From positions 1-64,000 of the forward strand of contig NZ_CP131133.1 in NCBI RefSeq assembly GCF_033705735.1: a stretch of DNA of 64,000 nt, written 5' to 3'. The DNA comes from Shinella zoogloeoides. Its GTDB lineage: Bacteria > Pseudomonadota > Alphaproteobacteria > Rhizobiales > Rhizobiaceae. The notes below the pieces were generated by a model. The model made no database searches. It saw only the letters and a program-made list of their open reading frames with translations, and had not been told where the DNA came from. The first letter of the stretch is position 1, and every line of letters begins with the position of its first letter. The position numbers were made by a program, and so were the translations under genes. Of the stretch, positions 25,097-58,031 are shown one piece after another.

Positions 25097-25791
25097 TGCA
25101 GCGCCGCCTTCATCGCATCCATGCGCTGACGCCAGTCCTCGGCCTTGCGCTGTTCGTCGACCTGGTTCTGCGCCTGCTGCACCATGCGCAGACCTTCCAT
25201 CCGCAGCACGTCGGATTGGAGAAACGCCTGTTCAGCTTGCAACCGTGCCTGAAGGTCGGCGATTTCCTTGGCATCGCTTGCCGTCGAAATCTTCTCGCGA
25301 AGCTGGTCGATCCCGTCGATGCGCTTCGTGGCCGCATCGTAAATCTGCTGTCCAAGGCTCATCTGGCCCGCGTTCTTGTTCTGCACACGCGCGAGTTCCT
25401 TGGCATAGAAATCGTCGGCGTCGGTGCGATAGGTGGAGTTGCCCTCCAGGAACTTCGAGGCGGAATCCTTGAATACGCCGGTGCCTTCGCCCTTCAGCAA
25501 TCCTTCGATCGCCGCGAAGTCCGATGGAAGGGCCTTGCGGATCGACGGATCGTTGAGCACGCTCGCCACATCAGCCATGTCGGTCAGCTTGTTGAGCGAA
25601 CCGTAGAGCTGCTGGGCCTGCTCGATCTGCTGATGAAGAGCCTCGAGCTGCGACTTTAGTTGCGCGATGCTTTCGATCTGCTTCAGGATCGCCGTCTGGT
25701 CGATCACGGGAATCCCCTGCCCTGCCGCGCCGCCTGCGGAAAGGATGAGCACGGCTGCAAGCGCCACGCCGCGGAGTCGATAAGATGCCAT
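25093..25791 (-). CDS. virB5: VirB5 minor pilus protein
   Basis: A 232-residue exported protein with a signal peptide ending AAGQG (residues 1-25) and long amphipathic helices (QIESIAQLKSQLEALHQQIE; DLQARLQAEQAFLQSDVLRM). This is the VirB5/TrbJ helical-bundle pattern. It overlaps virB4 by one or more bases at its start and the lipoprotein gene at its end. VirB5 sits at the pilus tip and helps contact with recipient cells. Confidence 0.88.
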   Translation of the reverse strand: MASYRLRGVALAAVLILSAGGAAGQGIPVIDQTAILKQIESIAQLKSQLEALHQQIEQAQQLYGSLNKLTDMADVASVLNDPSIRKALPSDFAAIEGLLKGEGTGVFKDSASKFLEGNSTYRTDADDFYAKELARVQNKNAGQMSLGQQIYDAATKRIDGIDQLREKISTASDAKEIADLQARLQAEQAFLQSDVLRMEGLRMVQQAQNQVDEQRKAEDWRQRMDAMKAALQ

Positions 25792-28172: not shown

Positions 28173-28506
28173 ATCCGAGGTCCCTTTCATCGAAGCGCCG
28201 AACAAGCTTCAGCGGTGAAAGTGTGGCTCCGCCCCAATAGGTGCCGTTTCGGGTCCGGCCGCGCGTTTCCACCCAGGCCACGAGGATCCGGAACATGTTG
28301 TGGTCGTGTTTGACCAGCGCCCGGAACACGAAATGAAAGACGACGCCGACGAGCGCATAGGCGACCGAGCCCGCCGCGAGGTAGAAGATCGTGGTCGCCA
28401 TGACGTTGATGCCCATGGCCTCCATCGTCACGCCCGCGATCATCGCCGGGCGCGTGCAAGCGATGAACAGGGTGTCCTCCTCAAGCTCGGGTCGCGTGGT
28501 CGCCAT
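28165..28506 (-). CDS. virB3: VirB3 inner-membrane protein
   Basis: A 113-residue protein with the VirB3 pattern: EEDTLFIACTRPAMIAGVTM, a hydrophobic hairpin around residues 25-60 (IFYLAAGSVAYALVGVVFHF) and the cytoplasmic tail with HDHNMFRILVAWVETRGRTR. ATG at 28506 is five bases from virB2. It works with VirB4 in pilus assembly. Confidence 0.9.
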   Translation of the reverse strand: MATTRPELEEDTLFIACTRPAMIAGVTMEAMGINVMATTIFYLAAGSVAYALVGVVFHFVFRALVKHDHNMFRILVAWVETRGRTRNGTYWGGATLSPLKLVRRFDERDLGYA

Positions 28507-41904: not shown

Positions 41905-41950
41905 CGTGGGACTACGTTACAATCCTGATTCGGAAATAGTGGGACTACGT
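41905..41950. repeat. left-end repeats, two copies
   Basis: CGTGGGACTACGT at 41905-41917 and GGAAATAGTGGGACTACGT at 41932-41950, both pointing toward tniA. These look like binding sites for the TniA transposase. Confidence 0.7.
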
Positions 41951-41974
41951 TCGCAACCTTCTCGTAGTATAGCT

Positions 41975-43573
41975 ATGGATCGCAACGAGGCCAATGAGCG
42001 GGAATGGCAGACGGCGCTTGCACGAGCCGCTGTGCTACGCCGCTTGCCGCAACGACCGAGCCGAGACGAAATCGCCGACGCGATGGCTGAGTTGGGAGTC
42101 GGCCGGACGACGCTATTTCGCTGGTTGAAGAGTTTCCGGGAAGACGAGCGGATCGCGGTCCTGATCGAACGCAAGCCGGGTCGGCGACCGGGGATCGATG
42201 CTTTCGAACCGGAACTGAAGGTGCTGGTCGATGAAGCCATCCGGACGTTCTATGCCACGCCGGAACGGCCGAGCCTGACGCGGCTGTGGAAGCGCATCGT
42301 CGCCGAGTGTCGGCATAGCGGTTTGACGCCGCCAGCGATCAGACGGTTGAAGGCCTATCTTAAGACCTACGATGCGGAAGCGCTGATGCGTCGGCGTGAA
42401 GGAAAGGCGCGGACAGAGGCGCAATTCCTGGCCCTGCCTGGCGAGTTTTCCGCGCAGCATCCACTGCAGATCGTCCAGATCGACCATACCAAGGTCGATG
42501 TGACGGTGGTCGATCCGATTGAACGACAGCCGATCGGCCGACCTATTCTGACGATTGCCATCGATGTCTGCACGCGCATGGTGCTGGGGTTCTACCTCTC
42601 CCTGGAGGCACCTTCGGTGACCTCGGTGGCGCTATGCCTGACGCATGCGATCATTGATAAGACACGCTGGCTTCAGGATCGTGGAATTCCGCTCAAATGG
42701 CCAGCGAGCGGCTTGCCCGAGTGTATCCATGTCGACAACGGCGCCGAATTCCACGCCCGTGCGTTCAAGCGGGGCTGCGACGACCACAACATCGTCGTCT
42801 CTTATCGGCCGCCAGGAACGCCCCGATTTGGCGGCCATGTCGAACGCCTGATTGGCACGATGATGGGGGCGGTGCATCTGCTGCCCGGCACGCACTTCTC
42901 CAACGTGCTGGAGCGGGGCGACTACGATCCCGAGGTGCGGGCCGTGATGACGATGCGTGAGCTCGAGGCCTGGCTGGCGCTGGAGATCATCGCCTACCAT
43001 ACCGACCTGCATCGCGGCATCGGCCGCCCGCCGGTGGCGGCCTGGAACGAAGCCGTATCGGCGCGGCCTGTGCGGCAGGTGCGTGATCCGCTTGCCTTTC
43101 TGATCGATTTTCTGCCGTTCGAGCCGCGAGTGCTGCGGCGGACCGGCATCCACATCCACAACATCTGCTATTGGTCGGATGGTTTCGCGCCCTGGATCGG
43201 CCGGTGCGACGACAAGGTTCTGGTCAAATATGACCCGAGGGATCTGCACCAGGTGTTCGTCAAGTTGGATGGAAACTATCTGATGGCGCCGACGCGCAAT
43301 CCCGGACGTCCCGCCATCACGCTGTGGGAACAGAAGGCGGCGTTGCGCGTGCAGCGAGCCCGCGGCCGCAGCGAAATCGACGAGGAGACGATCTTCCAGA
43401 CGATCGCCGCGCAACGTGCCTTGGTCGACCATGCGACGCGGGAGACTTTGCAAACGCGCCGACTGCGCGCGCGGCGGGCGCATCTGTTGGCAAAGCCGGC
43501 GCTGCCGGCCAGCGCGCCGGCGGACGAACCGGTGATCGCCTTGCCACATTTTCCAGTGGAGGTATGGGAATGA
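41975..43573 (+). CDS. tniA: TniA transposase (Mu/Tn5053 DDE type)
   Basis: A 532-residue DDE transposase. An N-terminal helix-turn-helix (EIADAMAELGVGRTTLFRWL) leads to the rve catalytic core with Asp in HPLQIVQIDHTKVDVTVVDP, Asp in CIHVDNGAEFHARAFKRGCD and Glu in GTPRFGGHVERLIGTMMG. The Mu-transposase C-terminal domain follows (YWSDGFAPWIGRCDDKVLVK). ATG at 41975 is chosen; the open frame extends 69 bases upstream but only over repeats. It overlaps tniB by four bases. Confidence 0.92.
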   Translation: MDRNEANEREWQTALARAAVLRRLPQRPSRDEIADAMAELGVGRTTLFRWLKSFREDERIAVLIERKPGRRPGIDAFEPELKVLVDEAIRTFYATPERPSLTRLWKRIVAECRHSGLTPPAIRRLKAYLKTYDAEALMRRREGKARTEAQFLALPGEFSAQHPLQIVQIDHTKVDVTVVDPIERQPIGRPILTIAIDVCTRMVLGFYLSLEAPSVTSVALCLTHAIIDKTRWLQDRGIPLKWPASGLPECIHVDNGAEFHARAFKRGCDDHNIVVSYRPPGTPRFGGHVERLIGTMMGAVHLLPGTHFSNVLERGDYDPEVRAVMTMRELEAWLALEIIAYHTDLHRGIGRPPVAAWNEAVSARPVRQVRDPLAFLIDFLPFEPRVLRRTGIHIHNICYWSDGFAPWIGRCDDKVLVKYDPRDLHQVFVKLDGNYLMAPTRNPGRPAITLWEQKAALRVQRARGRSEIDEETIFQTIAAQRALVDHATRETLQTRRLRARRAHLLAKPALPASAPADEPVIALPHFPVEVWE

Positions 43574-44448
43574 CGGCCTATGCGCACCTCGATCCCGCCG
43601 TTCGGGCCCATGTCGACCTGCCCGAGCGCGAGCGTATCGAGCATATCCGGGTGGATCGGTGGGTTAATTATCCGCGTGCCCGACAGGCGCTCGACAAGCT
43701 CGAGGAACTGCTCTTGTTTCCCAAACGCGCGCGCATGCCCAATCTGCTGATCTTCGGCGCGTCGGGCATGGGCAAGACAATGATCATCGAGAAGTTCGTA
43801 CGGGCTCATCCGCCGCGCTTCGACGAGACCATCGGCATCCATCACCGGCCTGTCATCGCCGTGCAGATGGTCGCCTCACCGGACGAGGGACGTTTTTATC
43901 ACCGCCTGCTTTCGGTAATCGGCGCGCCGCCGCCGACGCGCGCTACGCTTGGGCAGCTCGAAACGCAGGCACTGCGACTGCTGCAGGAAATCGCGCCGCG
44001 CATGCTGGTTATCGACGAGGTCCAGAATCTGATCGCCGGCACCTACCGCGAGCAGCGCCGGATGCTCAATCTGCTGCGCTTCCTCGGCAACGAGTTGCGG
44101 ATCCCACTGATCTGCCTCGGCTCGCACGAGGCGCGCGATGCGATCCGGGGCGACGCCCACCTCAACAGCCGCTTCGAGCCCTACGGTCTGCCACCGTGGC
44201 GGCACGACGACGACTTTCACGGGCTGATTGGCGGGCTGCTATGCTCGTTGCCGCTGCGTTTCCCGTCCGAGCTGACGGATAGCGCACTCAAACGGCTCGT
44301 GGAGATCAATGGCGGCATCACGGCCTCGATCTTCCGGATGGTGATTGATCTCGCCACGGACGCCATTCTCACCGGAACCGAACGGATCACGCCGACCGCG
44401 ATCCTCGATCACCGCGTTGCCGCGCCGACGACCTTCGCTGCGGCCTGA
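43570..44448 (+). CDS. tniB: TniB ATP-binding transposition regulator
   Basis: A 292-residue AAA+ protein. Walker A is LIFGASGMGKTMIIEKFVRA near residue 58; Walker B is APRMLVIDEVQNLIAG. It resembles TnsC/TniB, which selects targets and activates TniA. It starts inside tniA and ends three bases before tniQ. Confidence 0.93.
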   Translation: MTAYAHLDPAVRAHVDLPERERIEHIRVDRWVNYPRARQALDKLEELLLFPKRARMPNLLIFGASGMGKTMIIEKFVRAHPPRFDETIGIHHRPVIAVQMVASPDEGRFYHRLLSVIGAPPPTRATLGQLETQALRLLQEIAPRMLVIDEVQNLIAGTYREQRRMLNLLRFLGNELRIPLICLGSHEARDAIRGDAHLNSRFEPYGLPPWRHDDDFHGLIGGLLCSLPLRFPSELTDSALKRLVEINGGITASIFRMVIDLATDAILTGTERITPTAILDHRVAAPTTFAAA

Positions 44449-44454
44449 GCCGTG

Positions 44455-45462
44455 ATGGGGGAGGGGAGGGCGCCGCTGCCGATCGTGCCGCCGCCCTTTC
44501 CGGACGAACGGCTGAGTTCCTGGCTCGAGCGGATCGCCGATGTCTATCTGGTTTCCCGGGAAGGGCTGCAAAGGCATGTCGGCTGGGTTCGGCCCGCGCT
44601 GCAGCTCGAGAGGGAACCCGTGCAGAACGACCTCAAGCGCATCGCCGCCGCAACGAGCAGTTCGGTCCAACGCCTGCTCGCCATGACCTTCCATGACGCG
44701 CCGGCGCGCTATCGCGACCTCCTTCTCTTGGATTCCCAGGCATTTTGCCCGGGCTGCTCGCGCGGCATGCAACGACCGCAACGTCTCAGATCCTGGGCGT
44801 TCGCTTTTTCCTTCTGGTGCGAGCGACATCGTCAACCGCTTGTCAGCTGCAACACACGCGGCGCCAGTGCTCTGGGCGACTATTGGATCGCCCGTCAGGG
44901 TGCGCAAATCCTCCATCGCTGGGCAATGGGAGGGGATTCCGACACACTGTCCGTCAGCGCGATTTTATCGTTGCTGCTGTCGCCGGTGCGCGAAGCGTCG
45001 CCTGCGGCGCCGTGGGAACTGGCCGGCTTGCCATTCTCGTGTCAGCACGAGCCATCCATCCGATCGCAGCGCTTCCGACGCCCTGCCTTGACGGTCGTGG
45101 TGCCGGAATTCCGGGTCGCTGTGCCGATCTATGAGCAGCAACTGCCTTCAGCCATCAGCGATTTGCCGGACACGTCAGGGGCGGAGCGGTACGGGCTTGC
45201 GATCGGCGTTGCCCGCGTCCTGCAGGATCCGGCCGACGCCATCGTTCGCATCTTGGAAGCTTCCGACGAGTTCGGCCGAAAGAAAGTCACGGCGCTGATC
45301 GACCGGTGGCCGACTGCAATCCGCAGCGCTGTCGATCGCCGCGCGCCTTGCACCCGCAGGCGAGGGGAGGGCGCAAGAGCAGCGACCAGTCCCCGCGTCA
45401 ACCGTTCGCGGGTTCGTGCACCTTCAGCCCGAGATCCCGGGCGCGATCAAGCAGATGCTTGA
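44455..45462 (+). CDS. tniQ: TniQ, C-terminally altered
   Basis: A 335-residue TniQ-domain protein: PPPFPDERLSSWLERIADVY, FCPGCSRGMQRPQRLRSWAF and FSFWCERHRQPLVSC with the zinc-ligand cysteines and histidine. TniQ proteins of this family are usually about 400 residues. The last 40 residues (RRAPCTRRRGEGARAATSPR) are Arg-rich and overlap the opposite-strand recombinase remnant, so the true end was probably lost. ATG at 44455 or GTG at 44452. Confidence 0.8.
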   Translation: MGEGRAPLPIVPPPFPDERLSSWLERIADVYLVSREGLQRHVGWVRPALQLEREPVQNDLKRIAAATSSSVQRLLAMTFHDAPARYRDLLLLDSQAFCPGCSRGMQRPQRLRSWAFAFSFWCERHRQPLVSCNTRGASALGDYWIARQGAQILHRWAMGGDSDTLSVSAILSLLLSPVREASPAAPWELAGLPFSCQHEPSIRSQRFRRPALTVVVPEFRVAVPIYEQQLPSAISDLPDTSGAERYGLAIGVARVLQDPADAIVRILEASDEFGRKKVTALIDRWPTAIRSAVDRRAPCTRRRGEGARAATSPRVNRSRVRAPSARDPGRDQADA

Positions 45463-46255: not shown

Positions 46256-47218
46256 ATGGCGGTCATGGATTCGCCCGTCACCCCTCTCGTTCCTGCTCCG
46301 GCGTTCATCGCCGCCCTACCTGGCTGGGCCCTGCCGCGTGGCCGCGAACCGGACGAGATTGCCGCCGCCTTTGCCGCCGGCATCACCTTGAAATCGCTCG
46401 ACGATCTTGTCCGCGCCGCACCCGTCTGGGTCGGCTGCTGGCGGTCTCGTCAGGCCCTGAAATGTGCCGCCGTCGCGGTCCGGCTGATGGGCCGCAGCGA
46501 GGACGAGCCCGCGTTGCGCGACGCCGTTCTGCTGACGGCCGCCGGCGACGATCCCGGCCCGGCCGGCCGCGTGCTTCTGGCCTACAAAAGGTTTTCCACG
46601 CGAAAACCCGGCTTTTCCTCGAAAGCCGTGGCCGAATTGGCCGAACTTCTTGGGCTTGCCTGGGACGAGCGTCTCGCCGCGGCCGTCGATCACGCCGACG
46701 ATGCGCTGCAATCGGGCCACCCGGCGCCGTTCGCCGCGGCGGACCTGGTCACGGCCATCCATGCCGTGCGGCCGGACGCCGAGCCGCTCGCCTGGATGCT
46801 GGCCGATCTGTTGATCGCCGCGCTGCTGAAATGGAATTTTGCCGTGCCGCTGCTGATGGCCGAGCGCTACGGGCCGGCCTTCAAGACTATCGGGGGCAGG
46901 GGCCGTGTGCGCCCGGGGGAGCCGGCCTTCGCCCGCGCCGTCTGCCTTGCCCTCGCCGAGGCAACGGGCGCGGCCCTGCGCACCGCCGGTGAGATCGCCC
47001 GCCGCGCCGAGACGCTGCGCGCCGCAGTGCCAAAGGTCCGGACGAAAGGCGCCGGTACCGTCATCCAGGCCCTGCTTGACGAGGACGCCGTGGCAGCCTC
47101 CGCCCCCGGCATCTCTCTGTCGCGCTGGGCGGCGACCCGGCTGTTCGACCGGCTGGAAGGTTTTGGCGCCGTGCGCGAACTGTCAGGCCGCGCGTCGTTC
47201 CGGATCTATGGATTGTGA
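46256..47218 (+). CDS. DUF1403 family protein
   Basis: A 320-residue protein recognised as DUF1403 by its pattern: [60 protein letters not shown] and a C-terminal helical region ending RASFRIYGL. It occurs on rhizobial-type plasmids beside an ScpB-like gene, as here, with one base between the two. Function unknown to me. Confidence 0.78.
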
Positions 47219-47219
47219 C

Positions 47220-47903
47220 ATGAGCGGACCGGAGGCAGCGGGCAAAACACGGACGTCTCGGACGAAGGACGCAAGCGAACGCTTGTTGGATCGGGAGCTG
47301 GTGGATTTGCCGCCGGACCTGCGCTGGCGCGAATGGATGCTGCGCGTCGAGGCGGTGATCTTTGCCGCGGCCGGGCCGGTCGGCCGCGAGACGCTGGCCC
47401 GTGTCGTCGGCAAGGACTGCAGCATCGACCTCTTGATCGACGACCTGCGCGCGGAGCTGCGGGACCGGCCCTATGAGATCGTCTTCGTCGCCGGCGGCTG
47501 GCAGCACCGAACGCGTTCGGCTTACGCATCCGCGATCCGGGCATCGCAGGCCTCGACGCGGAGCGCGGCGCCGGCGCTGTCCGACTTCGAGGCCATGGTG
47601 CTGATGGCGATCGCCTATTTCCAGCCGATCACCCGCGGCGACCTGTCGAAAATCTTCGGCAAGGAGGTCAGCCGCGATACGATCGCCAGCCTCCGCAACG
47701 CCAACTTCCTCGCTTCCGGCCCGCGCAGCCCGACGCCCGGCGCGCCCTACACCAATGTCACGACAAAACACTTCCTCTCGGCCTTCGGCCTGCAGACGCT
47801 GCGGGATTTGCCGGACATCGAGGCGCTGGAGGATGCGGGGTTGCTCAGCCGAAAAGGTGTGCAGGACGAAGCGTTGGCTGCGGCCGAGTGTGAAGAGGAT
47901 TAG
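47220..47903 (+). CDS. ScpB-like winged-helix protein
   Basis: A 227-residue protein of the SMC-associated ScpB family: LRWREWMLRVEAVIFAAAGP, VGRETLARVVGKDCSIDLLI and the second winged helix LSDFEAMVLMAIAYFQPITR followed by GDLSKIFGKEVSRDTIASLR. ScpB normally dimerises and binds SMC with ScpA, but no scpA or smc is near. The ATG at 47220 directly follows the DUF1403 stop. It is presumably a plasmid-specific paralogue, perhaps concerned with replicon segregation or copy control. Confidence 0.82.
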   Translation: MSGPEAAGKTRTSRTKDASERLLDRELVDLPPDLRWREWMLRVEAVIFAAAGPVGRETLARVVGKDCSIDLLIDDLRAELRDRPYEIVFVAGGWQHRTRSAYASAIRASQASTRSAAPALSDFEAMVLMAIAYFQPITRGDLSKIFGKEVSRDTIASLRNANFLASGPRSPTPGAPYTNVTTKHFLSAFGLQTLRDLPDIEALEDAGLLSRKGVQDEALAAAECEED

Positions 47904-48086
47904 CCGGGTAGCGCACCCGCAGAAGACGTTCTCATGCAACTGTTGATAAAATGCCCTCCTATGTTCGCAAGCTAAAGGTTGGACTCCCAAACACAGCTCC
48001 TTCCGACTAATGCTAGTACGGATTTGGAGTGGAAATGGGATAATGTTCCCGTTGTGTTCGCGCTTTGGAACTGATGGGAGATTTCG

Positions 48087-50030
48087 ATGGCAAAGCCGTA
48101 CGCATCTGAACTGGCCCGGTTGCAGGAGACCCTGCGCTGGGCCTCCTCGACTGACATTGAATCCTTGAGGACTGCAGTAAAGACCGCTGGCCTTTCCCCG
48201 TTGTCAGCCATCGGATCTGGAGGGTCGTTGACGGCCGCACATGCGCTCGCAGCACTGCATCAGTTGTTTACCGGCAAACCTGGCCTGGTTCAAACACCCC
48301 TCGAAGCCGCGAGCGCGAACTTGGATCCCTCCGTCAGTCAGTGGCTTTTGAGCGCTGGAGGAAGTAATGTCGATATCAACGCGGCTGCGGTTTCCCTCAT
48401 TGAAAGAGAACATCGCCAAGTCGCCGTGATGTGTGGCCGGCTCGGCAGCCCGGTTACCGAAATTTGTGAACGTCACCCCTTCGTTGATCTTTTGTTGTTT
48501 CCGCCACCAGCGGGAAAAGACGGTTTCCTTGCGACGAACTCCCTCGTGGGGTTCTCAGCCCTGCTTGCACGCGCATACACTTCAGTCTTCGACCCAATCG
48601 CGTCTTGGGAAGATGTCGCTTCTACAGTGGAGCCATATGCCGACGGAAGCTCAGGCCAGGTTCAAAGTTGGCGAGATTCAGCCAGGGGCCTGTGGGACCG
48701 GGCCACCACCGTGGTGCTGTACGGGCCTTCAACAAAAATCGGGGCAGTCGATCTGGAATCGAAGTTCACAGAAGCGGCGCTCGGTATTGTGCAACTGGCT
48801 GACTATCGAAACTTTGCCCATGGTCGCCATCATTGGATAGCTAAGCGCGGGCAGGAAACTGCCATTCTCGCTTTCATAACAGATGAGGATAGGGCGATCG
48901 CCGAACGAACACTCGCCCTCATTCCAGCGGATGTTCCGATTGCGAAGCTTGAGATCAACGGCCACGGGCCGGCCGCGCTTCTCGGATCTCTCCTGGCTGC
49001 GCTGCACGTTACAGGGTGGGCTGGTCTTGCACGGGGCATAGATCCCGGCCAGCCGGGCGTCCCGGATTTCGGTCGAAAGCTCTATCACCTCAACCTCCCG
49101 AGCAAAGGCCGGAAAAAGGCTCTAGGCGTTTTGGCCAAGAGCGTGAACGCCGCAATCGCGCGCAAAACCGGAGAGTCAATTCGGCGGCTTGACGAACGAA
49201 AGACGCTATCTCATTGGCAGGATGCGTTGACCACCTTTGTTGGACAGTTGGAGTCGACAACCTTTGGGGGTGTCATTCTTGACTACGATGGTACGGTTGT
49301 CGATACGCGACAGCGATTTCAACCAGCCCGTCCTGAGATCGTCGCTGAGTTGGAGAAGATAGCAAGAAGCGACGCCACTCTGGCGATTGCGACCGGACGA
49401 GGAGTTTCAGTCAGGAAAGACTTAAGGACGGTGCTTCCAGAGGAGCTGTGGTCACGAGTTATCATCGGGTACTACAACGGTGCGATGATCGGAACGCTCA
49501 ATGACGATAGCGTGCCCGATGGAACGGATGAAGTATGTCCAGAACTCAAAGACCTGGCTGAAGCCTTTCAAACAAGCGATGAGCTGGCCGGCGCGGCAAA
49601 GCAAACGAACCGACGTTACCAGATCACTTTGGAACCTCGTCAGTTCATGGCCGAGAACCGGCTTTGGGACATTGCCCACCAATTAATCCTCCGCACCGGC
49701 TGCCGGGAAGCCATCGTGACTAGGTCGAGCCATTCGATCGATATCATTGCAAGCGGTGTCAGCAAAACCAATGTCATTCGTCAGGTCCAGGAGCGATTGG
49801 CAGGCCGCCAGGTTCTTACGATCGGTGACCGCGGCCGCTGGCCTGGAAATGACTACGACTTGCTGAATGCTCCCATGGGCCTCAGCGTTGATGAGGTCAG
49901 CGTCGATCCAGCGACCTGCTGGAACCTCGCGGAACCCGGTCAGCGTGGAATAGCTGTTACGCGAAGCTACCTCGCGGCACTCGAAGTAACCGACGGTGGT
50001 TTGCGATTTCGTAAGGGGGCGTTTCGATGA
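48087..50030 (+). CDS. SIS-like plus HAD hydrolase two-domain protein
   Basis: A 647-residue first gene of a five-gene operon. Residues about 1-330 have the pattern of a SIS sugar-phosphate isomerase/binding domain: LSAIGSGGSLTAAHALAALH, SQWLLSAGGSNVDINAAAVS and KIGAVDLESKFTEAALGIVQ. From residue 397 a HAD phosphatase follows: GGVILDYDGTVVDT (motif I with DxDGT), LAIATGRGVS (II), SKTNVIRQV (III) and LTIGDRGRWPGNDYDLL (IV), all intact. RBS GGGAG precedes the ATG. It ends four bases inside the next gene. The combination suggests handling of a phosphorylated sugar or nucleoside. It is not a known housekeeping enzyme as far as I can tell. Confidence 0.72.
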   Translation: MAKPYASELARLQETLRWASSTDIESLRTAVKTAGLSPLSAIGSGGSLTAAHALAALHQLFTGKPGLVQTPLEAASANLDPSVSQWLLSAGGSNVDINAAAVSLIEREHRQVAVMCGRLGSPVTEICERHPFVDLLLFPPPAGKDGFLATNSLVGFSALLARAYTSVFDPIASWEDVASTVEPYADGSSGQVQSWRDSARGLWDRATTVVLYGPSTKIGAVDLESKFTEAALGIVQLADYRNFAHGRHHWIAKRGQETAILAFITDEDRAIAERTLALIPADVPIAKLEINGHGPAALLGSLLAALHVTGWAGLARGIDPGQPGVPDFGRKLYHLNLPSKGRKKALGVLAKSVNAAIARKTGESIRRLDERKTLSHWQDALTTFVGQLESTTFGGVILDYDGTVVDTRQRFQPARPEIVAELEKIARSDATLAIATGRGVSVRKDLRTVLPEELWSRVIIGYYNGAMIGTLNDDSVPDGTDEVCPELKDLAEAFQTSDELAGAAKQTNRRYQITLEPRQFMAENRLWDIAHQLILRTGCREAIVTRSSHSIDIIASGVSKTNVIRQVQERLAGRQVLTIGDRGRWPGNDYDLLNAPMGLSVDEVSVDPATCWNLAEPGQRGIAVTRSYLAALEVTDGGLRFRKGAFR

Positions 50031-51175
50031 ATGAAGATCTCGGCCTCAGGGTTCTCAGCGAAATCATGCAGTGGAGCGATGATGAGGCACGGAAAGAGTT
50101 CGACTGGCTACGCCTGATGGCTCGTCTAAAATATGATGGCTACCGCGACTTTCAGGCCGGAATGCGTTTTATTGAGAGCTTGGCTACTTGGCTCCAGCAG
50201 TTCAAGGCACAGGCAGAGAGAAAGACCGCCTACGATTTCGTTCGCAATGCACTCGTATACATCGGGCCAAGCGAAATGCAGAGGCTAGTCGAGCAGCTGT
50301 ATCCAAAAACGGTACGCGATAGGCTTGTGCGCATGGTTGCGGAGGAGCGTAGCGTCCCCCCGTATCGGGTCTATGCAGACGAAGAAGCAAGGAAGGCGGT
50401 GGAGCGCTTGCGCCGGCAGACTCTCTTCATGGGCCTGAGTGATGGGGCCCGCATTGACGGTCTGCGGCACAGCAATGTCGGATTCCTCACCAACGAGCAG
50501 CTTGTGGTGTCAACACAACTGGACACAGAAAAATGGCAAGACCTTCTCGATAATCTCGAAGAAGGCCTTCAGGAAAAGGACGCCAAATTCAAGCTCGTCT
50601 ACCTGATCGATGATTTCATGGGCACAGGTACGTCCTTTCTTCGGTACAACGAGGGAAAAAAGAAATGGTCGGGAAAGTTGGCGAAGTTCAAGGAATCGAT
50701 CGAACTCGCGAGGAAGAACCTCGATGGAAGAGAGATTTTCGCCGACAACTGGCATCTCTGCATTCATCACTACGTTGCCACGCACGCGGCCTCGGCAGTC
50801 ATCAAAGAACGCGCATCGGCGGCAAAGGCAGCACTGCAGTCAGACGGTTGGGCGTCCGAAGTTCATTTCTCCTTCGGAACGATCCTACCCGAGTCGCTTC
50901 CGATCAACGCTCATGGAAATGGCTTTCAGAGCTTCATTGAATTGACGAAAAGCTATTACGATCCGGCTATCCGTACCAAGCACACTGACGTTGGCGGCGA
51001 AACCCATCTCGGGCTCGGCTACGGCGGCTGCGCCCTTCCGTTAATCCTCGACCACAACACTCCAAACAATTCCGTCGCTCTGCTATGGGCGGAGACCGAC
51101 GGCGGTAAACGTGAGGGGGGTGTGGATGCACCGCCTATGAGCCCCCTGTTTCGGCGCCGGCAAAGACATGTATAG
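50027..51175 (+). CDS. PRTase-like protein (PRTase-CE type)
   Basis: A 382-residue protein with a phosphoribosyltransferase PRPP-loop: LVYLIDDFMGTGTSFLRYNE near residues 190-210, where consecutive acidic residues and the GTGTS loop match type I PRTases. A preceding motif, LFMGLSDGARIDGLRHSNVG, is typical of the branch associated with bacterial conflict systems. The N-terminal 120 residues are helical (FDWLRLMARLKYDGYRDFQA). The C-terminus ends in LGLGYGGCALPLILDHNTPN, a segment shared within this branch. It overlaps the SIS-HAD gene by ATGA, so expression is coupled. Confidence 0.7.
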   Translation: MNEDLGLRVLSEIMQWSDDEARKEFDWLRLMARLKYDGYRDFQAGMRFIESLATWLQQFKAQAERKTAYDFVRNALVYIGPSEMQRLVEQLYPKTVRDRLVRMVAEERSVPPYRVYADEEARKAVERLRRQTLFMGLSDGARIDGLRHSNVGFLTNEQLVVSTQLDTEKWQDLLDNLEEGLQEKDAKFKLVYLIDDFMGTGTSFLRYNEGKKKWSGKLAKFKESIELARKNLDGREIFADNWHLCIHHYVATHAASAVIKERASAAKAALQSDGWASEVHFSFGTILPESLPINAHGNGFQSFIELTKSYYDPAIRTKHTDVGGETHLGLGYGGCALPLILDHNTPNNSVALLWAETDGGKREGGVDAPPMSPLFRRRQRHV

Positions 51176-51182
51176 GTGAGAT

Positions 51183-53102
51183 TTGGTAAACCCGTTTGAG
51201 AAACGCGCAACGGAGTATCTCCAGCAGGACGAGGCGTTTCTGGCAGTCGTGACGCCGGAACCTCTTTCGACGTTCTTCGAGAAGCCAGCCCAGGAGGGGA
51301 GGCTCTACGACCGCCTTGCGATGGTGATTGGAACGCCCGGGAGTGGCAAGACCACACTAGCGCGACTCTTCAAATATTCGACGCTGCGGATCCTTCTGCG
51401 AAACCGTGGATTTGAAACCTATAAGAATCTCATTGATGGACTTTCTGCCTGTCGTGCGATCGCGGACGGGCAACCTGCTGTAATTGGGTGCAGAATTTCG
51501 CTTGAGAGCGAGTATCGGGAATTCTGGGAGTTCCCCTATCCGGACACGCTGAAGGCCTCCCTTACCGTGGCGCTCCTTCAGGCGCGCGCCGTTCTCGCCT
51601 GGCTCCGAGATGCGCAGGCCGCCGGCATTGCGTTGGAAGACATTGACATTGTTGCACGACCTGATGCGGAAGCCGCACTTGAAGCGATCGGGGGAGCCAA
51701 TGGTGTCGGCCTACAGCGGCGAGCGCGTGAGATGGAAACTGCGATCTATGAGATTTCCGCGGCACTGGTGCCTCCGGACATTGATGAGGTTGAACAGAAC
51801 GCCGCTGCAACCGCTTATCGGCCACTGGATGTCATTGACGCGTTTAGCGTGAAGGACGGAAATGACCTCCTTCAGCTCACGCCCCTCGTCGTATTCGATG
51901 ACGCCCACTACCTGCACCCTAGCCAGCTTTTGGCGCTCCAGAGATGGCTCGCCCGTCGGGAGCTTCGCGTTGCACGATGGATCCTTACCCGCTTGGATGC
52001 ACTCGCCCCGGCTGATGTTTTAATCGAAGGGCAGAATGTTTTCGAGGAGGATGAACCTGGGTTGAAGCTCGCCAGAGAGGTGACGACCATCTGGATGCAA
52101 AGCAGCGAGGGCCGCGCCAACCAGCGTCGCGCATTCCGCAAAATGGCAAAGGATATGGCCGGCCGATATCTCAGCCAAATGGAAGTCTTCAATCGGAGGG
52201 GTCTCAATACGCTTGGTGATCTGCTTTCAACTCACGTCGACACGTTGGCGCCGTCCAAGGTGGAGAAACTGGCGAAGAAGGTTGCTGCAACCCAGCGACG
52301 ATACTCAATTACCGCCGAACGTCGGACAATTCTTGAGCGCGAAGTTGGCGACTATCTCGAGAAGGGCGCGGAGAACTCCGAGGATATGAAGCTCTCGCTG
52401 CTCTCCATCCTACTGGAGCGCTACGCGAACAGAACGCCTCAGCGCGGTCTTTTCGAAGATGAACCGGAAGTGGATATGGAGCCCTCGAAGCCGTTGACCG
52501 CAGGCGCAGCAGTGGCCGACGGCGCGAGGATTCATCTCCTCCATCAGTTTGATCGCCCCTACTATTACGGTATCGATGCGCTGTGTGACGCAAGTTCCGA
52601 AAACGCCGAGCAGTTTCTCCACTTGGCTGCGCGGCTCGTTGCGCAATCAGAGACTCAGCTCATTCGGTCGAAGTCGCCGACGCTATCGAGCCAGGTCCAG
52701 CACAATCTGTTGAGAGAACGGGCCGACGAGATGATACGCGGTTGGGATTTCCCGCTTCATCATCTGGTTAGGCGGCTGTCTCAGGGCATCGCTGATCAGT
52801 GCGTCGTCAAGAGCCTTGAGGGGAATGCCCCGTTGAACGGGGGCGCCAACGCTTTCGGGATTCCCCAAGAAGACTTCGACCAGATCCCGAAACTGTACCC
52901 GGACTTGGCGAAGGTGCTGCAGTTCGGAGTTGCGTACAATGCCTTTGTGCTGATCCCCAATCATAGCACGAAAAACCGCAACTGGTGCCTAGTGGAGCTG
53001 TCAGGCGTCTTGCTGATCCGAAACGGCCTGACGCTGAAGAGGGGCGGCTTTCTGGAGCGGCGTGTCGAGGACCTCGTGCGTTTGACTGAAGAGGCTCCGT
53101 GA
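51183..53102 (+). CDS. ORC/CDC6-like P-loop ATPase
   Basis: A 639-residue protein. Walker A is MVIGTPGSGKTTLARLFKYS near residue 46; the likely Walker B is PLVVFDDAHYLHPSQLLALQ near residue 234; a sensor-like region ARWILTRLDALAPADVLI follows. The C-terminal half is helical, with DALCDASSENAEQFLHLAAR, and ends in a winged-helix-like region. The start is a TTG at 51183 with AGGTGAGA just upstream; no ATG occurs before Walker A. It lies seven bases after the PRTase gene and overlaps the next by ATGA. It is probably a sensor or regulator ATPase that controls the other four products. Confidence 0.68.
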   Translation: MVNPFEKRATEYLQQDEAFLAVVTPEPLSTFFEKPAQEGRLYDRLAMVIGTPGSGKTTLARLFKYSTLRILLRNRGFETYKNLIDGLSACRAIADGQPAVIGCRISLESEYREFWEFPYPDTLKASLTVALLQARAVLAWLRDAQAAGIALEDIDIVARPDAEAALEAIGGANGVGLQRRAREMETAIYEISAALVPPDIDEVEQNAAATAYRPLDVIDAFSVKDGNDLLQLTPLVVFDDAHYLHPSQLLALQRWLARRELRVARWILTRLDALAPADVLIEGQNVFEEDEPGLKLAREVTTIWMQSSEGRANQRRAFRKMAKDMAGRYLSQMEVFNRRGLNTLGDLLSTHVDTLAPSKVEKLAKKVAATQRRYSITAERRTILEREVGDYLEKGAENSEDMKLSLLSILLERYANRTPQRGLFEDEPEVDMEPSKPLTAGAAVADGARIHLLHQFDRPYYYGIDALCDASSENAEQFLHLAARLVAQSETQLIRSKSPTLSSQVQHNLLRERADEMIRGWDFPLHHLVRRLSQGIADQCVVKSLEGNAPLNGGANAFGIPQEDFDQIPKLYPDLAKVLQFGVAYNAFVLIPNHSTKNRNWCLVELSGVLLIRNGLTLKRGGFLERRVEDLVRLTEEAP

Positions 53103-54211
53103 TGGCTCGAGATTGGCGATGGGACCCGTGTGTCTCGCATGATGGCATCGAAGCCGAGCGCTTCGTTGCCGAATATTTTCCAGAGGCGCATCGTAAGACG
53201 TTGCTGATTGCTGGGGCCGGATTTGATCCGAGAGCAACCCAGGTCGTGGACCGGTTAGCAACTGGTGGCGCTGACCTCAAAGCGTTGTTCGTACGTGAGA
53301 GCAGACCGAATCCAGACGGCGAGTTGACGCGCCGTGCCGAGGCGAACATCGAGCGGCTGAAGTCCGCTATACCCAATCACGAAATCGTCCCGATCGAGAT
53401 TTTTGGCGCTGACGGCGCGGTTGTCGGAGGGAGGAATGTCGCCGCGGCCGCATCTCGTCAAGATATGGCGTCTGTGACTGATGTCGTCGTCGATATCAGC
53501 GCACTTTCCGTTGGTACCGCATTTCCTCTTATTCGGTACTTCGTTGAACTCATCGATCGAGGAAGGGGACCGAAGAACCTCCATTTGTTCGTAGCGCACG
53601 ACCCTAGTCTCGATTCCCAAATCTCCTCTATCGCAGGCGATGCGCCCGGCTATGTTCACGGTTTTAAGGGTGGACTCACGCTTGACGCTGCGGCCAATGC
53701 AGCCAAACTGTGGCTACCTCAGCTCGCGAAGGGGAGGCGGCAGGCGCTTTCGCGTGTCCATGACTTCGTCGTTCCCCATGATACATGCCCAATCTTGCCG
53801 TTTCCGGCCCGTGACCCTCGGTTGGGCGATATGCTCGCTGAGGAATATATGGTTGAGTTCGAAAGCGCCTGGAAGGTCGATGCCCGCGATGTCGTTTATG
53901 CGGATGAGCAGGACCCATTGCACCTCTACCGAACGATCCTTCGTCTAGACGATCTACGCAAACCAGTGTTTCGCGATGCTGGCGGTTCAATCCTTATTCT
54001 ATCCCCGCTCGGTACGAAGGTCATGTCGCTAGGAGCGCTGATGGCCGCCTTGGAAAGGGATTTACCAGTCGCTTACCTTGAGTCGATAGGGTATGATTTC
54101 AAAGCGTCGGCGGAACGTTCTCTGCCGGCGCCGCATCTCATTCATGTCTGGTTGGAGGGAGACGTTTACCCGCAGCCGCGCCCCAGGCTGAAGAAAGGAC
54201 TGAATCAATGA
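53099..54211 (+). CDS. uncharacterised Rossmann-like protein
   Basis: A 370-residue protein that I do not recognise by name. It begins with a nucleotide-binding-like beta-strand and loop (KTLLIAGAGFDPRATQVVDR, about residues 32-51), has DVVVDISALSVGTAFPLIRY near residue 125, and SILILSPLGTKVMSLGALMA near residue 300, suggesting an alpha/beta enzyme or ligand-binding fold. Its start and stop both overlap neighbours by four bases, so it is an integral member of the operon. There is no transmembrane segment. Confidence 0.6.
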   Translation: MMARDWRWDPCVSHDGIEAERFVAEYFPEAHRKTLLIAGAGFDPRATQVVDRLATGGADLKALFVRESRPNPDGELTRRAEANIERLKSAIPNHEIVPIEIFGADGAVVGGRNVAAAASRQDMASVTDVVVDISALSVGTAFPLIRYFVELIDRGRGPKNLHLFVAHDPSLDSQISSIAGDAPGYVHGFKGGLTLDAAANAAKLWLPQLAKGRRQALSRVHDFVVPHDTCPILPFPARDPRLGDMLAEEYMVEFESAWKVDARDVVYADEQDPLHLYRTILRLDDLRKPVFRDAGGSILILSPLGTKVMSLGALMAALERDLPVAYLESIGYDFKASAERSLPAPHLIHVWLEGDVYPQPRPRLKKGLNQ

Positions 54212-55260
54212 CCACCTTGACCGAAAAGCCCAGCATTTTTGGTACAGGCCTGATCGCACTCGATCTGGTTATTGGCATCGACAGTCATGCGCCAGTCCAT
54301 TCTTGGACCGGTGGTACCTGCGGCAACATCCTTGCGATCATGAGCTATCTTGGCTGGGACGCCTATCCGATCGCCCGTATGAACGGTGACCCTGCTTCGG
54401 AACGGGTCCGTGTTGATCTCGCCCGATGGGGAGTTCATCTCGATTTCACGGACTGCGCCCCGACGGGTCATACGCCAATCATCATACAGCAGATAAAGCG
54501 CGCGCGCGATGGATCCCCGACGCATCGTTTTCTCTGGACATGCCCCCATTGTGGTGAACGTCTGCCAAGCTACCGTCCAGTCACGCAGAATTCTATCGAA
54601 GGCATTCTTCCTGCAATTTCCAATTCGTCCGTCTTCTTCCTTGATCGTGTATCTCGCGCGGCGATCTCTCTCGCGGCTGAGGCGGCACGCTCTGGTGCCG
54701 TTGTCGTCTTCGAGCCTTCGGGAAAGTCCGATGAGAAGCTATTCGAAGAGGCGCTCCAAATTGCTCACGTCGTCAAGTACTCTGATCAGCGACTATCTGA
54801 CGCCGGTGGCGCTATGACGGGCGATCGGGCGACGCTACTTGAGATCCAAACACTGGGTTCGCAGGGACTTCGATATCGGCATCGTTTAGCTGGCGCGTCT
54901 TCTGACTGGACGAACCTCGCTGCCGTGCCCGCCCCTCGGCTAGTAGACACCTGTGGTTCTGGGGACTGGTGTACGGCTGGATTTTTGATGAATGCGGCAT
55001 CAGCGGGTATCCAGGGGCTGAAGCAGATGGGTGAAGCTGATCTCGAAAACGCTTTGCGATATGGGCAAGCTCTCGCTGCTTGGAATTGCGGCTTTGAAGG
55101 CGCTCGCGGTGGGATGTATGCCTTGGACCGGCAAGAGTTTGCGCGACAGATCGATGCGATTCAGTCTGGAAAGCCGGTGCTTCGCATTGTTGAACGGCCG
55201 CAAAGCAGCGAGACCTCTGTTGCATGCCCAGCATGCCCCCGCGAGATTTCTGCAGCGTAA
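54208..55260 (+). CDS. PfkB-family kinase with cysteine knuckles
   Basis: A 350-residue ribokinase-like carbohydrate or nucleoside kinase. GTGLIALDLVIGID opens the fold, SWTGGTCGNILAIMSYLGWD is the substrate-side glycine motif, and LVDTCGSGDWCTAGFLMNAA near residue 246 is the PfkB signature with the catalytic Asp (GSGD). Unusual are FLWTCPHCGERLPS near residue 112 and ACPACP near residue 341, two CxxC pairs that could bind one zinc between them; ordinary PfkB kinases lack these. It ends the operon. Substrate unknown; a PRPP- or nucleoside-related compound fits the neighbours. Confidence 0.8.
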   Translation: MTTLTEKPSIFGTGLIALDLVIGIDSHAPVHSWTGGTCGNILAIMSYLGWDAYPIARMNGDPASERVRVDLARWGVHLDFTDCAPTGHTPIIIQQIKRARDGSPTHRFLWTCPHCGERLPSYRPVTQNSIEGILPAISNSSVFFLDRVSRAAISLAAEAARSGAVVVFEPSGKSDEKLFEEALQIAHVVKYSDQRLSDAGGAMTGDRATLLEIQTLGSQGLRYRHRLAGASSDWTNLAAVPAPRLVDTCGSGDWCTAGFLMNAASAGIQGLKQMGEADLENALRYGQALAAWNCGFEGARGGMYALDRQEFARQIDAIQSGKPVLRIVERPQSSETSVACPACPREISAA

Positions 55261-55708: not shown

Positions 55709-56569
55709 TTAGATTTTCTGCTGCCTCTCGAACTCGACGGGCGACAGCATTCCGTTTCTGACGTGCTTGCGTTTCGGGTTGTAGAACATTTCGATGTAGT
55801 CGAATACGTCCTGGCGAGCTTCATCGCGAGAGCGGTAGACCCTGCGACGTATCCTCTCCCGCTTCAGAAGATTGAAGAAGCTCTCGGCGACCGCATTGTC
55901 ATGGCAGTTGCCGCGTCGGCTCATCGAGTGAACCAGATTGTGGTGCCTGAGGAACGAGGCCCAGTCCATGCTGGTGAACTGCGAACCCTGATCCGAATGA
56001 ATCAGCACTTTGTCCTTCGGCTTTCGCCTCCACACCGCCATGAGCAGAGCCTGCAATACGACGTCCGTGGTCTGTCGGCTCTGCATCGCCCAGCCGATGA
56101 CCCGGCGAGAATAGAGGTCGATGACGACCGCAAGGTAAGCGAAGCCCTCGCAGGTTCGGATGTAGGTGATGTCCGTGACCCAGGCCTTGTCCGGAGCCGC
56201 GACGTCAAATTGCCGGTCGAGTGTGTTGTCGATAGCGACGGCAGGCCTGCCGCCATAGACGCCGGGACGACGTTTGTAGCCGATCTGCGCCTTGATCCCG
56301 GCGAGACGCGTCAGGCGCGCGACCCGGTTCGGGCAGCACATCTCTCCCTGATCGAGAAGGTCGTCGTGCAGCTTGCGATAACCGTAGACCTTGCCGCTCT
56401 CTTCCCATGCCTTCAGGAGCAGATCGGTCTGTCGCTTGTCCTCGTTGGCTCGCCTGCTCAGCGGGTTCTTCAGCCAAGTGTAAAATCCACTCGGGTGAAC
56501 CCGCAGAAGGCGGCACATCGTCCGCACCGAAAACTGCAAGCGATGCAGAGCAATGAACGCGTACTTCAC
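55709..56569 (-). CDS. IS3-family transposase OrfB
   Basis: A 286-residue integrase-core protein: WVTDITYIRTCEGFAYLAVV holds the first Asp, VLIHSDQGSQFTSMDWASFL the second, and GNCHDNAVAESFFNLLKRER the Glu. The N-terminal HTH_21 region reads FSVRTMCRLLRVHPSGFYTW. It overlaps orfA by four bases, and the fused OrfAB is normally made by frameshifting. Confidence 0.93.
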   Translation of the reverse strand: MKYAFIALHRLQFSVRTMCRLLRVHPSGFYTWLKNPLSRRANEDKRQTDLLLKAWEESGKVYGYRKLHDDLLDQGEMCCPNRVARLTRLAGIKAQIGYKRRPGVYGGRPAVAIDNTLDRQFDVAAPDKAWVTDITYIRTCEGFAYLAVVIDLYSRRVIGWAMQSRQTTDVVLQALLMAVWRRKPKDKVLIHSDQGSQFTSMDWASFLRHHNLVHSMSRRGNCHDNAVAESFFNLLKRERIRRRVYRSRDEARQDVFDYIEMFYNPKRKHVRNGMLSPVEFERQQKI

Positions 56570-56835
56570 TTTGCATCCCTGGCGAAATACGCGGCCGCTT
56601 TTTTTAGGATGTCTCGCTCCTCGGTGACGCGAGCCAGTTCCTTCTTCAGCCTCCTGATCTCCTCAGCCTCGTCGTTGTCTTTGCCGTTCGACGCAGCAAA
56701 CTTCTTCTTCCATTCATATAGGGAATGCTGGCTCACACCGAGGCGCTGAGAAACCTCAGCAACCGGATAGCCTCGCTCCGTGATCTGGCGAACCGCGTCA
56801 CGCTTAAACTCTTCGCTGAAATTCGATTTGCTCAT
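56566..56835 (-). CDS. IS3-family transposase OrfA
   Basis: An 89-residue helix-turn-helix protein beginning MSKSNFSEEFKRDAVRQITE, with VSQRLGVSQHSLYEWKKKFA as recognition helix and the leucine-zipper-like IRRLKKELARVTEERDILKK. A run of seven A (coding strand, near 56602) just before the end is a plausible slippery site for OrfAB synthesis. Confidence 0.92.
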   Translation of the reverse strand: MSKSNFSEEFKRDAVRQITERGYPVAEVSQRLGVSQHSLYEWKKKFAASNGKDNDEAEEIRRLKKELARVTEERDILKKAAAYFARDAK

Positions 56836-57014: not shown

Positions 57015-58031
57015 TTATAAGGACCGGAGGTAGGAAAGCAGATCCGGCTTTGGCTTCCAAGGCGTTGTCTTCGCGGGTTCGATGCCGGCGTGCTTCCAAA
57101 AGTTCTGTAGCGCATCGCTCTTCATCTTCAGGTTCGTCGAGATATACCGGTTCGTGGTCGCGATGCTGGAATGCCCAAGATAATCGCGGATCACCGTCAC
57201 GTCGGTGCCCGACTGCAGGAGCGCGACGGCGCAGCTGTGGCGGAAAACGTGAGGAGTGATGCGGTCCCGAGCCAGCCTGGGTCGATCTTGGACGACTGGC
57301 GAGGCATGCTTGGTAAGGATGTATGCAGCTCCATCGCGGGTCAGCGGTTGGCCGTGACGGTTCATGAAAACATGCTGCTGGCCCGCAGCGCCCGACAGGT
57401 TTTGCAGGCGCCGCAACGCGTCGGCCGTCTCGCGCCATAGCGGAACGAGCCGCTCCTTGCGGCCCTTACCACGCAATCGGGCTTGGTGCGGTGGCGTCAG
57501 TTGAAGGTCCTGCCATAGCAGGCCGGTTGCTTCGCTCACTCTGGCGCCGCAATTATAGAGGAAAAGCAGCAGCGTGTAATCGCGCCAGCCGCTGCGGGTC
57601 CGCCGATCGGGATGGGAGATGATGGCCCGCACGTCGGTTGCTTCGAGATAGGTTGCGGGCTTCTGCCTCGCCCGCTTCGACGGGAGCGCCAACACCTGCG
57701 TGTAACGGAGCGCATTGTCGAGATCGTTGCGCAAGAGGTGCTTGAAGAAGCTGCGAAGTGCGGCACGGCGGCAGTTGCGCGTCGCGGTGGAGTTGGATCT
57801 TCCGTCCTCGAGATGATCGAGGAACCCAGCGACGGTGTCGGCGTCGAGATCCTCCAGCACAAGCGCGGCGGCCTCGCGGCCACGACGCTGGGCAACGAAC
57901 TGAAACAGCAGCTTGAGCGTGTCGCGATAGGCGCGCGTCGTATGTGGGCTGGCGCCGCGCTGACGCGGCAAATAGTTGGAGAAGAACGACTCCACCAGAG
58001 CGAACAGCATCTGAGGTCCGACCTTACTCAT
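57015..58031 (-). CDS. RIT-C-like tyrosine recombinase
   Basis: A 338-residue tyrosine recombinase of the same type as the RIT C gene at 14220. The core reads [40 protein letters not shown] and [20 protein letters not shown]. It overlaps the chimeric gene upstream by four bases, as RIT B and C do. A RIT A gene is not present, so this is the remaining half of a second, damaged RIT element. Confidence 0.85.

Follow-up and report, generated by a model that had tools for sequence, protein, structure and literature searches.

The question raised by this locus is what is accomplished by five intact open reading frames that lie head to tail on one strand, at 48087-55260, in DNA of Shinella zoogloeoides. 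The window, which is the whole stretch of DNA that was analyzed, covers positions 1 to 64,000 of a contig of 140,013 bases, one of four in a genome of 5.79 Mb. All five genes are on the plus strand, in the order S-R-A-C-K. Gene 1 (S, 48087-50030) encodes a 647-residue SIS-HAD protein with a tandem-SIS-like amino-terminal part and a HAD-IIB phosphatase carboxyl-terminal part. Gene 2 (R, 50027-51175) encodes a 382-residue PRTase-CE phosphoribosyltransferase, the presumed effector, and gene 3 (A, 51183-53102), which begins with TTG, a 639-residue ORC/CDC6-like AAA+ ATPase, the presumed switch. Gene 4 (C, 53099-54211), which begins with GTG, encodes a 370-residue tandem CARF protein, the presumed ligand sensor, and gene 5 (K, 54208-55260) a 350-residue sugar or nucleoside kinase of the PfkB family. 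The original prediction of five intact, tightly coupled genes on the same strand was confirmed. It had also described every junction as an ATGA overlap or a seven-base spacing. This is correct for genes 1/2 and 4/5, which overlap by ATGA, and for genes 2/3, which are separated by a 7-base gap, but genes 3/4 overlap by GTGA.

Gene 4 had 153 relatives in a scan of species genomes, and the best 80 were retained; these 80 are the nearest relatives, found via one conserved motif, and distant CARF6 proteins are under-sampled. In a separate protein search, 7,998 candidates were scored and 1,672 of them were listed as gene 4 relatives. In the best 80 of the 153 loci, K was found in 76, A in 75, S in 73, R in 72 and a gene for a NADAR N-glycosidase in 28, although the gaps may include contig ends. 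When only those loci of the 80 that are flanked on each side by 7 kb or more were considered, all five families were present in 48 of 49 and NADAR in 20 of 49. The sole exception was L056, in which R and A were absent by tblastn and the CARF match began only at residue 121. Since two genes are missing, the CARF protein is shortened and the locus contains no N run, L056 is, to judge by its sequence, a decayed or rearranged copy.

The same association was seen in broader samples. Among 397 genomes of the order, including the window's own, CARF6 was found in five, and the SIS-HAD protein and the ATPase were found in the same five; within the window's own family, this sample contained no further genome with a match. 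Of 398 genomes sampled from the phylum, 7 matched, again including its own, and one of the seven matches was weak and stop-bearing. Two IMG/VR contigs carry versions of the system. The distance matrices of the proteins (38 rows) were correlated at 0.86-0.92 in all ten pairs, a value to which shared descent contributes, as compared with at most 0.23 in 1,000 permutations per pair. The genes are under purifying selection, as indicated by a dN/dS of 0.03-0.06 against one relative. The five genes therefore co-occur elsewhere, as the original prediction required, and the possibility that they are chance neighbors is excluded by the 48 of 49 loci and the identical five of 397 genomes.

The system is sparsely distributed, mobile and often plasmid-borne. 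Gene 4 matched 16 plasmid records. Seven records matched the 7.4 kb block as a whole or in part, and in five of them the match, at 70.7-80.0% DNA identity, extended across 80% or more of the block; the plasmids that carry the block are from Agrobacterium, Rhizobium and Pelagibacterium. Copies also occur on long sequences titled chromosomes (L041, L044 and L045). In the window, genes for TniA-, TniB- and TniQ-like transposition proteins lie upstream of the operon at 41906-45462 and a phage-type integrase lies on the other side at 57015-58031. The reading frames between the operon and the integrase, at 55709-56835, are IS3-like by eye. Relatives of TniA or TniB are also present in the fetched stretches of L009, L023, L029, L067, L073 and L077. 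Directly upstream of the operon, at 46256-47903, are a DUF1403 gene and an overlapping ScpB-like frame. This site may be an insertion hot spot, since relatives of both are present in five other loci (L025, L026, L051, L097 and L103).

Gene content is kept while gene order is reshuffled. In 81 loci, the window and the best 80 of 153, the order S-R-A-C-K was found in 36, and R-A-C-S-K with a NADAR gene facing in 23. S-R-A-C-K with NADAR was seen in L068, L073 and L074, and K-S-R-A-C in L055, L061 and L054, the last of which has two R pieces. The other layouts in this set were partial or odd. Plasmid copies had S-R-A-C-K-NADAR (L014), S-K-R-A-C (L016), S-K-NADAR followed by R-A-C (L021) and NADAR-S-R-A-C (L022), K being absent from the stretch of L022 that was fetched.

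Two plasmids carry two cores each. Rhizobium tumorigenes has one NADAR-S-K set followed by two R-A-C cores, which are 41, 27 and 29% identical in R, A and C, respectively. Sinorhizobium meliloti has one R-A-C-S-K-NADAR unit followed by a second R-A-C, and its cores are 34, 27 and 31% identical, the last gene being cut by the end of the locus. The presence of two divergent cores next to a single S-K-NADAR set suggests that there are two modules, an R-A-C core and an S-K-NADAR module held in common, and thus a plug-in design of sensor and effector. NADAR gave no match in the window's own genome and is therefore not essential. A gene for a patatin-like phospholipase, which matched a PADLOC phospholipase effector at 3.4e-9, is located between the two R. 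tumorigenes cores (L147:19466-21091), and in Rhizobium sp. CB3060 a caspase-family gene adjoins NADAR (L017:13040-14494).

The best-known role of CARF sensors is to read the cyclic oligoadenylates made by CRISPR systems. The product of gene 4 had been called Rossmann-like in the original prediction; the fold type was upheld and could be sharpened to tandem CARF by both profile and structure comparison. Three CARF6 models of PADLOC matched at 1e-35 or better, including PDLC01916 (1e-127) and PDLC01910 (3.6e-94), and no non-CARF family matched at an E value of 1 or better in Pfam or NCBIfam. When the gene 4 model was analyzed with VIA-align, the nine best rows were all CARF proteins, the alignments spanned residues 33-330 of the model and the CARF Rossmann fold was found. 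The 370-residue chain has no effector domain fused to the CARF part. Neither sequence nor profile searches of the PDB gave a useful relative for gene 4. VIA-align 2 was preferred over the Foldseek ranking, in which chloride-cotransporter tails and methyltransferases came up at a TM of about 0.25, and the viral structure library returned mostly methyltransferase and capping-enzyme titles at a TMq of 0.28 or less. In an alignment of 42 rows, D43, R45, E67, R69, D132 and S137 were invariant. E67 and R69 come after a glycine-rich loop, close to where the second strand ends, an arrangement that recalls dinucleotide-binding Rossmann proteins.

Profile searches of the other four proteins, which had been proposed as a check, placed each of them in a family above the Pfam cut-off. 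Gene 1 matched the HAD family PF08282 (1.3e-8). A profile built from 38 relatives also matched the HAD protein BT4131 (2.3e-6) and the SIS entries 2aml (3.5e-4) and 8eol (8.5e-4); the SIS part gave no PDB match with the single sequence and was visible only with this profile. Gene 2 matched PRTase-CE, PF24390, with 67.6 bits against a cut-off of 27, and the retron PRTase family PRTase_III-A of PADLOC at 9.2e-12, and it is presumed to be a PRTase effector. The gene 2 profile found no useful relative in the PDB (best E value 0.51). Gene 3 matched the ORC-CDC6-like family PF24389 at 1.1e-10 (41.3 bits, cut-off 27), and gene 5 matched PfkB, PF00294, at 4.3e-13, with fructokinase 5ey7 found by its profile at 1.6e-15.

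The active-site residues of the enzymes are intact as far as can be seen from the alignments. In gene 1 the HAD residues D399, D401, K560, D581, N588 and D589 are kept in 38 of 38 sequences, as are the Walker A and B residues of gene 3 (G53, G55, K56, T57, D239 and D240) and D247, G250, G252 and D253 of gene 5. In the acidic pair of the PRPP loop of gene 2, D196 is kept in all 38 and D195 in 36, with E in the other two. Two earlier proposals were revised. The idea that a cysteine knuckle makes the kinase an on/off element was rejected, since C112 is present in 38 of 38 aligned sequences but C115 in just 25, so that a zinc knuckle is not a feature of the family. The ATPase had been proposed to sense invasion or stress; the tandem CARF protein is now the likeliest sensor of a small molecule and the ATPase is more likely to be a switch than a sensor.

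A possible source of the ligand of gene 4 was sought in Cas10 and in SMODS cyclases. A single Cas10 profile, PF22335 (palm), was run against 51 carriers, consisting of the window's genome and the genomes of 50 of the 80 loci. It gave no match in the window's own genome, and a role as a type III CRISPR accessory was rejected on this basis. In the 51 carriers, some match was found in 20, a match over the cut-off in 13 and a match above 75 bits in 3. The profile also matched E. coli in the control, and control proteins from GGDEF regions matched weakly, which makes it probable that GGDEF proteins account for the weak matches. SMODS was detected in 13 of 51 carriers, including the window's genome, where a SMODS nucleotidyltransferase on another contig (C2:1280559-1281044, 5.8e-23) indicates that a CBASS-like locus may be present. 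No cyclase, such as a CBASS or Pycsar operon would encode, was found among the five proteins. Since 36 of 51 carriers have neither a strong Cas10 match nor SMODS (28 of 51 when all Cas10 matches over the cut-off are counted), cyclic oligoadenylate is unlikely to be the general ligand, although it may serve in this host, in which SMODS is present.

Ribosyl N-glycosidic bonds and ADP-ribose derivatives are the targets of NADAR domains, according to the available excerpts of PMC9503650. By analogy with this chemistry, and with the Rossmann-like loop features of gene 4, a ribosyl-type ligand is favored for the CARF protein. A more specific proposal is advanced tentatively, with somewhat less than even confidence: that CARF signaling here proceeds without cyclic oligoadenylate, that the sensor responds to a metabolite of phosphoribosyl or ADP-ribosyl type, whose level is set by dedicated SIS-HAD, PfkB and NADAR enzymes, and that one metabolic module serves several divergent PRTase-ATPase-CARF cores in the same cell.

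The locus is a real, mobile multi-gene system that probably functions in immunity against invading DNA. Its best explanation, to which an even chance is assigned, is a mobile conflict system, frequently carried on plasmids and probably directed against phages or plasmids, that consists of two modules, an R-A-C core and a metabolic S-K module that may include NADAR. The tandem CARF protein would bind a nucleotide-type ligand and signal through the ORC/CDC6-like ATPase, which in turn would release or activate the phosphoribosyltransferase. The latter would attack N-glycosidic bonds of free nucleotides or drain PRPP and so bring the invaded cell to growth arrest. The SIS-HAD and PfkB proteins and, in many relatives, the NADAR N-glycosidase would control how much of the ligand, a molecule of phosphoribosyl or ADP-ribosyl type, is present, so that this module would tune or reset the switch. 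The immune role, the action of the PRTase as effector, the class of ligand and the direction of the S-K-NADAR chemistry are what we infer from the families and their arrangement. What is observed is a nearly invariant five-gene unit in which a CARF protein is partnered with sugar-phosphate and N-glycoside enzymes, and one small operon thus bears both on CARF sensing outside CRISPR and on the action of PRTase effectors.

The conflict-system reading is based on published PRTase effectors, on the match of gene 2 to a retron PRTase and on the defense and mobility genes in the flanks. According to the available excerpts of the literature, retrons and an anti-phage DprA-PRTase pair probably employ a PRTase, perhaps of a family other than PRTase-CE, as their effector, which supports the earlier statement of a link between such families and conflict systems. 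The flanking proteins include QatB, QatC, DrmB and DrmC (Qat and DISARM), restriction methylases and a TIR effector, as well as integrases, relaxases and conjugation proteins. The neighbor test compared 140 of 450 flanking proteins with 140 of 258 control proteins, the controls being centered on GGDEF-type genes rather than random; by look, they were mostly housekeeping proteins. At 1e-10, 88 PADLOC families were matched in the flanking set and 10 in the control, and several of the 88 can come from one protein. When proteins were counted among the matches listed (25 of the 88), defense proteins numbered 12 as compared with 5 of 140 each (p 0.13), where the control count leaves out desulfurase-type SspA/DndA and PycC matches. 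Enrichment near defense genes, a further expectation of the original prediction, was thus not significant by protein count.

Several other explanations were considered. It is unlikely that the PRTase, HAD protein and kinase build a messenger that is read by the CARF protein, with the ORC/CDC6-like ATPase acting on DNA as the output. Such a scheme would resemble the proposal for the Ter system, in which PRTase and HAD enzymes make a nucleoside signal (PMC7824862, available excerpts), and it would agree with the intact active sites of all the enzymes and the lack of an encoded cyclase in the operon. However, S and K change position but R stays beside A and C, the two cores that share one S-K-NADAR set fit R better in a sensor-effector core, and the family of R is tied to retron effectors in the published excerpts. 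A metabolic function, the salvage or detoxification of an unusual sugar or ribosylated compound regulated by the CARF-ATPase pair, is improbable. While three of the five genes encode sugar-phosphate-type enzymes and ribosyl N-glycosides are substrates of NADAR relatives (PMC9503650, excerpts), the rarity of the unit, with just 5 carriers among the 397 genomes sampled in the order and 7 among the 398 sampled in the phylum, its own included, argues against it, as do the absence of transporter-annotated genes from the unit in the plasmid loci viewed and the ties of PRTase and CARF families to conflict systems in the excerpts available. An addiction or fertility-inhibition device, that is, a plasmid maintenance or anti-plasmid module that is not anti-phage, is highly improbable, since five or six genes are many for an addiction module and copies are found on chromosome-titled sequences, despite the 16 plasmid records, the conjugation genes among the flanking proteins and the position of the L020 unit between relaxase/coupling-protein genes and a type IV secretion (T4SS) cluster.

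The conflict system favored here has partial counterparts among known systems. The component families have already been named by others in Pfam and PADLOC, and the operon is not claimed to be undescribed. To the CARF6 family (CARF_CARF_CARF in PADLOC-DB), to which gene 4 belongs by its three model matches and its CARF fold, the present analysis adds four fixed partners in the well-flanked loci. CARF6 reportedly originates in a 2020 classification of CARF proteins. PF24390 and PF24389 have neighboring accessions, which suggests that they were described together, and PRTase-CE is said to have been defined in a 2023 paper; the partners found here are SIS-HAD, PfkB, tandem CARF and NADAR. The CARF fold is shared with the type III CRISPR effectors and ring nucleases Can1, Can2, Csm6 and Sso2081, and the tandem arrangement is like that of Can1 (entry 6sce). 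In contrast to those effectors, the gene 4 chain carries no effector domain, and Cas10-palm matches are absent from its own genome and strong in 3 of 51 carriers. A PRTase as probable effector is common to retron type III-A and DprA-PRTase in the excerpts available, but the five genes lack DprA, none of the five proteins matches a reverse transcriptase, and the sensor and switch are different. The operon differs from the Ter system in that Pfam gave no Ter match at an E value of 1 or better for any of the five proteins, and TerB, TerC and TerD gave no match among them in Pfam or NCBIfam. The term PRTase-CE was not found in that part of the literature that was searched, and CARF6 was not found there in this sense, its one use being unrelated.

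The region upstream of gene 1 was also analyzed. A 13-mer, CAACTGTTGATAA, at 47937-47949 on the plus strand, 150 bp upstream of gene 1, is present as an exact copy in the window and in eight close relatives, also upstream of gene 1, and was not found in the more distant loci. At up to two mismatches, 0.45 matches were expected in the window and two were seen, one of them exact. The stretch that precedes it is unconserved in an eight-row alignment, and CAACTGTTGATAA may be an operator. A promoter and terminator scan gave signal at or below chance. In four plasmid copies, a gene annotated RHE_PE00001 or DUF1612 is located just upstream of gene 1 (L009:6747-7859, L011:6660-7766, L023:6711-7859 and L024:6720-7859), and such a gene also adjoins the second core in R. 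tumorigenes (L147:26139-27278). A small Cro/C1-type helix-turn-helix gene adjoins NADAR in L019 (12522-12869), and genes with helix-turn-helix annotation occupy the same position in L013, L021 and L147; this gene is a candidate regulator of the NADAR-bearing version. Elsewhere in the window, an 804-residue reading frame on the minus strand at 25791-28205 has a weak-to-moderate match to PADLOC mad8 (3.1e-11).
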